Shown here: piece after piece, positions 41,349 through 41,762 of the stretch
How the letters are laid out: each line of letters begins with the position of its first letter
How positions within the stretch are numbered: position 1 is the first letter of the stretch
Source of the DNA: Bacteroidota bacterium
GTDB lineage: Bacteria > Bacteroidota > Bacteroidia > M30B66
Direction: 5' to 3'
DNA: 64,000 bases
Assembly: GCA_027490225.1 (NCBI GenBank)
Contig: JAIXYK010000040.1
Coordinates: forward strand, 1-64,000
Program-made: the position numbers and the translations under genes
Notes under the pieces: generated by a model
What the model saw: the letters and a program-made list of their open reading frames with translations, nothing else
The model's database searches: none
What the model was told of the DNA's origin: nothing

Positions 41349-41356
41349 TATGTTTG
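41349..41356 (+). promoter_or_regulatory. Candidate -7 box of the met operon leader
   Basis: TATGTTTG matches TAnnTTTG exactly. No TTG is found at the expected -33 distance. If it is used, transcription starts at about 41360-41363, almost exactly at the ATG of the first leader peptide (41362). The upstream in-frame ATG at 41350 would then lie inside the promoter. Confidence 0.4.
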
Positions 41357-41361
41357 CACCC

Positions 41362-41436
41362 ATGATTCTTCAAACACTTTTATGTTGTCCTTGTATGATG
41401 CAGAAATGCAACAGGGCAATGATATGTTTGAACTAA
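41362..41436 (+). CDS. Met/Cys-rich leader peptide 1
   Basis: A 24-codon frame too short for the ORF track: MILQTLLCCPCMMQKCNRAM followed by ICLN. It has five Cys and four Met in 24 residues, with CCPCMM clustered at codons 8-13. A further in-frame ATG at 41350 would add four residues. The frame stops 20 bases before an intrinsic terminator (41456-41490). It lies upstream of metY-metX-hom, whose products make the sulfur amino acid precursor homocysteine. These are the classical traits of an attenuator leader peptide, whose translation senses charged tRNA-Cys and tRNA-Met. It probably has no function as a free peptide. The call is an inference from codon content, position and RNA structure. 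Confidence 0.75.
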   Translation: MILQTLLCCPCMMQKCNRAMICLN

Positions 41437-41474
41437 AAAAAATCAAACTTTTTCTAAAAGGCCCAATGCAATTT
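41404..41474 (+). promoter_or_regulatory. Candidate antiterminator pairing of leader 1
   Basis: TGCA (41407-41410) and GGGC (41414-41417), inside leader peptide codons 15-19, can pair with TGCA (41467-41470) and GCCC (41461-41464) in the 5' arm and loop of the terminator. AAA/TTT extend the helix across a bulged A. A ribosome stalled at the first Cys codons (41383-41394) leaves this segment free; one that finishes at the stop codon covers it. Confidence 0.55.
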
Positions 41475-41490
41475 GCAAAGGGCCTTTTTC
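41456..41490 (+). terminator. Attenuator terminator 1 of the met operon
   Basis: AAAAGGCCC and GGGCCTTTT form the outer stem, with an inner TGCA/TGCA helix, followed by TTTTTCTTTTT. It lies 20 bases downstream of leader peptide 1 and about 270 bases upstream of metY. Confidence 0.88.
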
Positions 41491-41514
41491 TTTTTACACC
41501 ATTCGATAAATAAA

Positions 41515-41673
41515 ATGACAAAAAATTCTAACAATCAATTATCAACTATAACTCAAAGGGAAAGATTAACTTCTGTTGATAGAATGATTGCATTTAAATC
41601 TATAAATATAAATATGATGATGTGTTGTTGTATGCCTATAAACCGGCCGGAACAACTATATCACATAGCATAA
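41515..41673 (+). CDS. Met/Cys-rich leader peptide 2
   Basis: A 52-residue frame between the two attenuator terminators. It contains the uninterrupted run MMMCCCM at codons 34-40 (41614-41634). The ORF track reads it from an alternative start at 41473 that lies inside terminator 1; ATG 41515 is more reasonable, and an internal ATG at 41584 would leave 29 residues with the same run. The stop codon is 25 bases before terminator 2. The position between two terminators and the block of sulfur amino acid codons point to a second attenuator leader acting in series with the first. No database family was checked. Confidence 0.75.
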   Translation: MTKNSNNQLSTITQRERLTSVDRMIAFKSININMMMCCCMPINRPEQLYHIA

Positions 41674-41698
41674 GAATTTTGATTTTTGCTTTTTATAT

Positions 41699-41734
41699 AG
41701 CCCCTCCGGAAATAGTTCCAGAGGGGCTTTTTTG
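41699..41734 (+). terminator. Attenuator terminator 2 of the met operon
   Basis: AGCCCCTC pairs with GAGGGGCT, extended by GGAA/TTCC after one mismatch, with an ATAG loop and a run of six T. It lies 29 bases before the metY start codon. A CCGGCCGGA segment just after the MMMCCCM codons (41643-41651) can pair over five bases with TCCGG (41705-41709) in the 5' arm, as a weaker candidate antiterminator. Confidence 0.88.
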
Positions 41735-41762
41735 TTTTGTAACCTTTTAATTTTTATATACA

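Follow-up and report, generated by a model that had tools for sequence, protein, structure and literature searches.

The metY-metX-hom operon in the 64,000-nucleotide stretch of Bacteroidota DNA analyzed here (hereafter, the window) is preceded by a leader that, as modeled, is highly likely to comprise two complete trp-type attenuators in series on one transcript, with ribosome-mediated control of transcription sensing charged tRNA-Cys and tRNA-Met. We conclude that this double Cys/Met switch very probably serves as a genuine means of control. Its parts, their order, their conservation and their mutually exclusive predicted folds are described below; the steps that we infer are transcription and translation of the leader, ribosome stalling, termination and a response to Cys or Met.

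Profile matches upheld the gene identities that had been proposed from the nucleotide sequence in an earlier, sequence-only reading. The metY gene (41763..43109, + strand), encoding an O-acetylhomoserine sulfhydrylase, matched TIGR01326 at 666 bits (cut-off 495). The metX gene (43087..44130, + strand), of the homoserine O-acetyltransferase family, overlaps the end of metY and had TIGR01392 as its best NCBIfam match at 343 bits, which is below the 500-bit curated cut-off. The hom gene (44112..45338, + strand), encoding a homoserine dehydrogenase, overlaps the end of metX and matched NF004976 at 312 bits (cut-off 205). The enzymes of the operon take homoserine and sulfide to homocysteine; Met is the product of the pathway and Cys is tied to it via sulfide assimilation. 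Directly 3' of hom, positions 45411-45689 encode a 92-residue protein consisting of a LysR-type HTH domain only, which is possibly a regulator of the metY locus. Another feature of the window is a single ORF of 4,841 residues at 11348-25873.

Layout of the metY leader

The leader spans approximately 400 nt upstream of the operon (41349-41762, + strand) and lies 3' of msrB and an M24-peptidase-like gene. It begins with a Bacteroidota-type -7 promoter box, TAnnTTTG (TATGTTTG, 41349..41356, + strand), from which the predicted +1 at ~41361 is one base ahead of the ATG of leader ORF 1; the usual position of this box in Bacteroidota is -12 to -5 (PMC9723704). A clear -33 box was not found in the window promoter. 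Based on the position of the promoter box ahead of leader 1, the two leader ORFs are predicted to share one leader transcript, and no promoter box was seen in the sequence between terminator 1 and leader 2. A second TATGTTTG box was observed inside ORF1 (41423-41430), and a transcript from it would bypass translation of leader 1 yet still meet terminator 1.

Leader ORF 1 (41362..41436, + strand) encodes the 24-residue peptide MILQTLLCCPCMMQKCNRAMICLN*, which has five Cys and four Met residues and contains the run LLCCPCMMQKC; its putative control codons are Cys Cys Pro Cys Met Met (41383..41400, + strand). In the predicted antiterminator 1 (41414..41464, + strand), GGGC at 41414-41417 pairs with the 5' arm of the terminator at 41461-41464 and encloses a GTTTGA/TCAAAC helix. 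Intrinsic terminator 1 (41456..41488, + strand) folds at -17.3 to -17.8 kcal/mol (z -4.3 relative to shuffles) and its hairpin is followed by TCTTTTT, with the U-tract reaching ~41494. Our promoter/terminator scanner missed this terminator, probably owing to its loop limit of ≤8 nt, and direct folding recovered it.

Leader ORF 2 (41515..41673, + strand) encodes 52 residues ending ...INMMMCCCMPINRPEQLYHIA* (this C-terminal end is also written ...NMMMCCCMPINRPEQLYHIA) and contains MMMCCCM, whose codons, Met Met Met Cys Cys Cys Met, are the putative control codons of the second stage (41614..41634, + strand). In the predicted antiterminator 2 (41647..41709, + strand), 41647-41657 pairs with 41699-41709 through CCGGA/TCCGG and an inner CTATAT/ATATAG helix. 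Intrinsic terminator 2 (41699..41728, + strand) folds at -20.2 to -20.7 kcal/mol (z -4.9) and is followed by TTTTTGTTTT. Its U-tract was delimited as 41729-41738 or, alternatively, to ~41734, and from the latter position to the metY ATG at 41763 is ~29 nt; the stop codon of ORF2 is ~90 nt upstream of metY. The sequence-only reading had placed two Cys/Met-rich short ORFs with strong terminators ahead of metY-metX-hom, and its counts and coordinates were right.

Cys/Met runs and chance

Among the 1,736 short ORFs in all six frames of the window, ORF2 had the top Cys/Met run (7 of 8 residues). ORF1 was within the top seven (5 of 8 residues) and so would not be significant alone; the case for it rests on the relatives described below. 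We examined 80 regions upstream of Bacteroidota metY genes, one of them from the window, and 41 had a short ORF with at least five Cys or Met among eight consecutive residues. The antisense strands gave none in 80, and shuffled sequences gave 0.2. Enrichment of Cys and Met codons in related leaders, whose absence had been set beforehand as a refuting test of the sequence-only reading, was thus evident in these regions.

Searches of the window's own genome for four-Cys-codon runs gave 83 matches, mostly repeat-like, and none of the 30 that were inspected was another convincing leader. Searches for CCCM runs gave four matches, of which the window's alone resembles a leader. No Cys/Met leader was found in this genome near PALP-family (cysK-like, thrC) genes or metH.

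The double arrangement in relatives

The order leader, terminator, leader, terminator, metY was found in the window and at four further loci (L083, L084, L003 and L177), in support of the earlier proposal of two attenuators in series, and antiterminators, which that proposal did not describe, were identified in all five. Each locus has two intrinsic terminators. The counterparts of leader 1 are MLFQKNMFCCCMMHKCVGASSC (L083), MIQTALCCCSKMMHVRASGQRCGQ (L084), MFNSMCHMMCCMTSEYRRTASFICAD (L003) and MNKNYNTMCTCMRLFAEGCCICAC (L177), and counterparts of leader 2 are present in the same four loci. The window's order is represented by ten genomes in our collection, three of which carry this metY, and all three have the double arrangement; L083 and L084 are both of the other same-order relatives having this gene. 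L003 is from a Flavobacteriales MAG and L177 from another family of the class. Judged by these leaders, the double Cys/Met switch occurs in at least four other Bacteroidota, in which the leader sequence has otherwise diverged.

Identity of the leader DNA was 47.7-64.0%, versus 68-73% for metY DNA, among the window, L083, L084 and L003 (L177 was outside the comparison), and the Cys codons occurred in either synonymous form (TGT 21, TGC 9). Compared with the window alone, the leader DNA of these relatives was 50-64% identical. The low identity of the leaders relative to metY indicated that it is the design that is conserved, that is, the Cys/Met runs, the spacing, the terminators and the antiterminators. 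Spacing was uniform, with 24-42 nt from the end of the run to the stop codon and 19-38 nt from the stop codon to the terminator. In addition, a TAnnTTTG box (background ~1.2 per kb) was directly 5' of leader 1 in all five tandem loci, and in three of them the predicted +1 was 0-1 nt ahead of the leader 1 ATG.

These relatives bear on whether stage 2 alone is regulatory, with hairpin 1 being a partial terminator or the 3' end of a short RNA and ORF1 being incidental. Within the window such a reading has some appeal, as leader 2 has both the stronger run and the stronger antiterminator and ORF1 by itself is not exceptional among the short ORFs. However, the leader 1 run, terminator 1 and its antiterminator have matches in all five tandem loci, and the stage 1 arm and partner change together (GGGC/GCCC, GGGGC/GCCCC, CCGGGC/GCCCGG, CCGAAGG/CCTTCGG and CTGAAGGG/CCCTTCAG). 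We consider it very unlikely that stage 1 is dispensable in this way.

Two further loci of family f10 (L163 and L178) have two Cys/Met leaders before metY, each without canonical terminators. Their second leaders are alike (MMRMCCSHERH and MMRMRCSYEQH). When the double-leader label, including these two loci, was mapped onto the MetY tree it required four changes, at least two of which were forced by well-supported branches, indicating that the double leader was gained, lost or transferred more than once. At L043 and L175, a single short leader ending SMCMCLRAL was observed before metY, with neither a canonical terminator nor an Rfam match to SAM-I.

At the gathering score, no Rfam family matched in the window, and with relaxed thresholds the leader gave nothing above that score and a list of E-values that looks like chance. 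There was no T-box match at the gathering score, and the T-box was absent from the E-value list for 41100-41800. SAM-I (RF00162) had no match at the gathering score in the window, L082, L083, L084, L177 or L003. An undescribed metabolite riboswitch or protein-binding leader, of which the short ORFs would be by-products, is in our estimation extremely unlikely. SAM-I precedes metY in most relatives, so RNA sensing of the pathway is established, but the window, L082, L083, L084 and L177 are without any Rfam match at the gathering score, the tandem leaders have no conserved aptamer-like sequence, and what they do keep is Cys and Met codons, in either synonymous form.

Predicted folding of the antiterminators

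We folded the RNA that would be free in front of a stalled ribosome with the last codon of the run in its A site. This stretch was taken to start after the first 13 nt downstream of the A site, a coverage adopted from E. coli, and to continue to the 5' arm of the terminator. An antiterminator taking the terminator 5' arm was predicted in all ten attenuators of the five loci. In the eight attenuators of the window, L083, L084 and L003, the stalled-state hairpin had an energy of -11 to -21 kcal/mol, and with the ribosome placed at the stop codon the remaining RNA folded at 0 to -2 kcal/mol.

Our first statistic, the paired share of the whole 5' arm, separated signal from shuffles poorly, probably through A/U dilution, and was replaced by the energy of arm sequestration (ddG). 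Each of the eight attenuators then had a z of -1.6 to -4.8, and the combined Stouffer z was -9.4, a value that takes partly related sequences as independent. Applied unchanged to L177, which was found afterwards, the same rule gave z of -6.2 and -4.6. In total, eight of the ten antiterminators were beyond 95% of shuffles, with window stage 1 and L084 stage 2 (z -1.7) being borderline. The weakest was window stage 1 (z -1.6; 38 of 500 shuffles were as good), and for window stage 2 none of 500 shuffles was as good (z -4.8).

In the window, the behavior of the three modeled states was clean. The mean pairing probability of antiterminator 1 was 1.00 with the ribosome stalled, 0.05 with it at the stop codon and 0.00 without a ribosome; the corresponding values for antiterminator 2 were 0.92-0.99, 0.03 and 0.00. 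The relatives were mixed once RNA upstream of the ribosome was allowed to pair, as a clear preference for the antiterminator was then lacking at stage 2 of L083 and of L084, and stage 1 of L084 and of L003 retained it approximately half the time with the ribosome at the stop codon. Together, the leaders have the elements of trp-type attenuators: an ORF with Cys/Met codons, an intrinsic terminator, a predicted antiterminator exclusive with it, and predicted masking by the ribosome at the stop codon.

Proposed mechanism

Based on these elements, we propose that RNA polymerase starts at ~41361 and that, when tRNA-Cys and tRNA-Met are both charged, the ribosome would finish leader 1 quickly. At the ORF1 stop codon it would cover the GGGC/GTTTGA segment, terminator 1 would form and the transcript would end near 41490. 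When either charged tRNA is scarce, the ribosome would stall on the CC.CMM run, the uncovered segment would pair with the 5' arm of the terminator and the polymerase would pass. A transcript that had passed would then meet the second switch, with MMMCCCM, antiterminator 41647-41709 and terminator 2, 29 nt before metY. Without a ribosome, pairing is predicted between the run and the antiterminator segment, so that the default would be termination. Total read-through would be the product of two stages sensing the same pair of signals. The presence of Cys as well as Met codons in each run means that either stage should respond to a shortage of Cys or of Met, and the effects of two like stages would multiply, giving lower leak and steeper induction. 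A shortage of Met would also slow initiation, and this counts against the proposed mechanism.

The sequence-only reading had also suggested that the two attenuators could give graded or AND-like control. An AND-like gate would need stages that differ in the amino acid they sense, chiefly Cys for leader 1 and chiefly Met for leader 2. The run does open with Cys codons in leader 1 and with Met codons in leader 2, both in the window and in the relatives from its order. However, both codons are in both runs, modeled stalling at the first or last codon of a run in the window freed the antiterminator about equally, and the order of Cys first and Met first is not kept in L003 or L177. We therefore regard an AND-like gate as unlikely and did not retain that part of the suggestion. 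The run order in the window's order of bacteria nevertheless leaves room for unequal weighting of the two signals by the two stages.

Comparison with known systems

Leader-peptide attenuation is known mainly from Proteobacteria, Actinobacteria and a few Firmicutes, and a survey published in 2010 was aware of no case outside these groups (PMC2965389); two Bacteroidota papers (PMC9723704, PMC7366714) mention it in passing only. The window leader resembles the Proteobacterial attenuators (trp, his, leu, thr and phe) in having control codons, a terminator, an antiterminator and a masking stop codon, and its predicted pairing of run and antiterminator corresponds to their protector. It differs from them in its two serial units, its mixed Cys/Met code, its occurrence in Bacteroidota and the probable position of the leader 1 start, at or beside the mRNA 5' end.

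According to the sequence-only reading, this arrangement is not known as a named regulatory family. Tandem leader-ORF attenuators do have a precedent in Salmonella mgtCBR, where each of two leader short ORFs controls transcription into the coding region (Lee & Groisman 2012, PMC3641672). The mgtCBR signals differ from one another (ATP and proline) and its hairpins are unlike intrinsic terminators (PMC3641672), whereas both window runs carry Cys and Met codons, a codon content that predicts the same signals for both ORFs, and both stages have canonical intrinsic terminators. The serial Cys/Met version was not found: in the open-access literature that we searched, outside of which lie most subscription papers, there was no report of Cys/Met attenuators in series or of composites joining SAM-I to a Cys leader.

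The cysS leader of Rhodobacterales, uORFC-8-2 (PMC8632094), also has Cys codons followed by an intrinsic terminator and the same predicted mechanism, but it is a single stage with two Cys codons and no reported Met code, before a tRNA-synthetase gene in Alphaproteobacteria. The Cys leader peptides of Actinobacteria (PMC1262725) likewise have runs of Cys codons before sulfur-amino-acid genes; their runs are near the stop codon and they are without terminators, making them closer to the SAM-I group of Bacteroidota (below) than to the window. Tandem riboswitches with two terminators (reviewed in PMC9481103) share the use of serial off-switches that sharpen control, except that they use ligand aptamers where the window is predicted to use ribosome stalling.

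Precedents thus exist separately for leader-peptide attenuation, Cys leaders and tandem attenuators. New elements are the mixed code, the placing of intrinsic-terminator attenuators in series for a single pathway, the occurrence in this phylum and the exchange with SAM-I, which in many other Bacteroidota lies directly before a Cys-run leader. The metY double leader is a concrete, conserved and testable case of leader-peptide attenuation in Bacteroidota, and a natural experiment in why two entire attenuators are used instead of strengthening one.

SAM-I riboswitches and Cys leaders before metY

In other Bacteroidota, SAM-I occupies the same position before the same operon and has the same physiological purpose as the window leader, but senses SAM by an aptamer that is absent from the latter. 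An Rfam scan of 60 other metY loci found SAM-I in 50, and 29 of the 50 also had a Cys-run leader ORF (examples within the L002-L062 metY upstream regions are L022, L028, L035 and L061). At most of these 29 loci the aptamer is followed 8-11 nt later by the leader ATG, and the Cys run reaches, or all but reaches, the stop codon, an arrangement that may represent a composite sensor of metabolite and tRNA. The leaders of the SAM-I group mostly have no canonical terminator 3' of the leader. In ten Cytophagales-type loci (L028, L034, L035, L036, L040, L045, L059, L061, L066 and L070), a conserved GCAACA between the leader stop codon and metY can pair with the Cys codons and is followed by a conserved hairpin around CCTGCCAAGTGACAGG. 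This hairpin has some covariation (two-sided changes in 6 of 17 pairs), and the element as a whole has no canonical terminator.

The scarcity of terminators in this group, and in the Actinobacterial Cys leaders (PMC1262725), would suit a role for the short ORFs in translational coupling or reinitiation on metY instead of transcription termination. In the tandem group, by contrast, both leaders have canonical terminators, U-tracts and matching antiterminators, and leader 2 ends ~90 nt before metY. We give very little credence to coupling as the explanation of the window leader, and favor serial attenuation.

The metY leaders also offer a natural experiment in the ways that riboswitches and ribosome-stalling switches substitute for each other, or are combined, before the same operon. 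A broader proposal, to which we assign an even chance, is that metY in Bacteroidota is controlled by composite sulfur switches that form one family. In many of these, SAM-I would gate a Cys-leader sensor of tRNA charging; the lineage of the window, and others independently of it, would have no aptamer and instead two Cys/Met attenuators in series.

Genome G000, of an assembly rated 100% complete, had no hisG match, and is possibly that of a histidine auxotroph or of an organism with a divergent enzyme. In the window's family, SAM-I was before metH, and not metY, in all seven genomes with a match above the cut-off (loci L146-L152 in G000-G004, G006 and G008; metH was named from a MetH-like N-terminus and not from a family search). 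Based on this placement, the lineage appears to split its signals, with SAM for metH and Cys/Met charging for metY-metX-hom.
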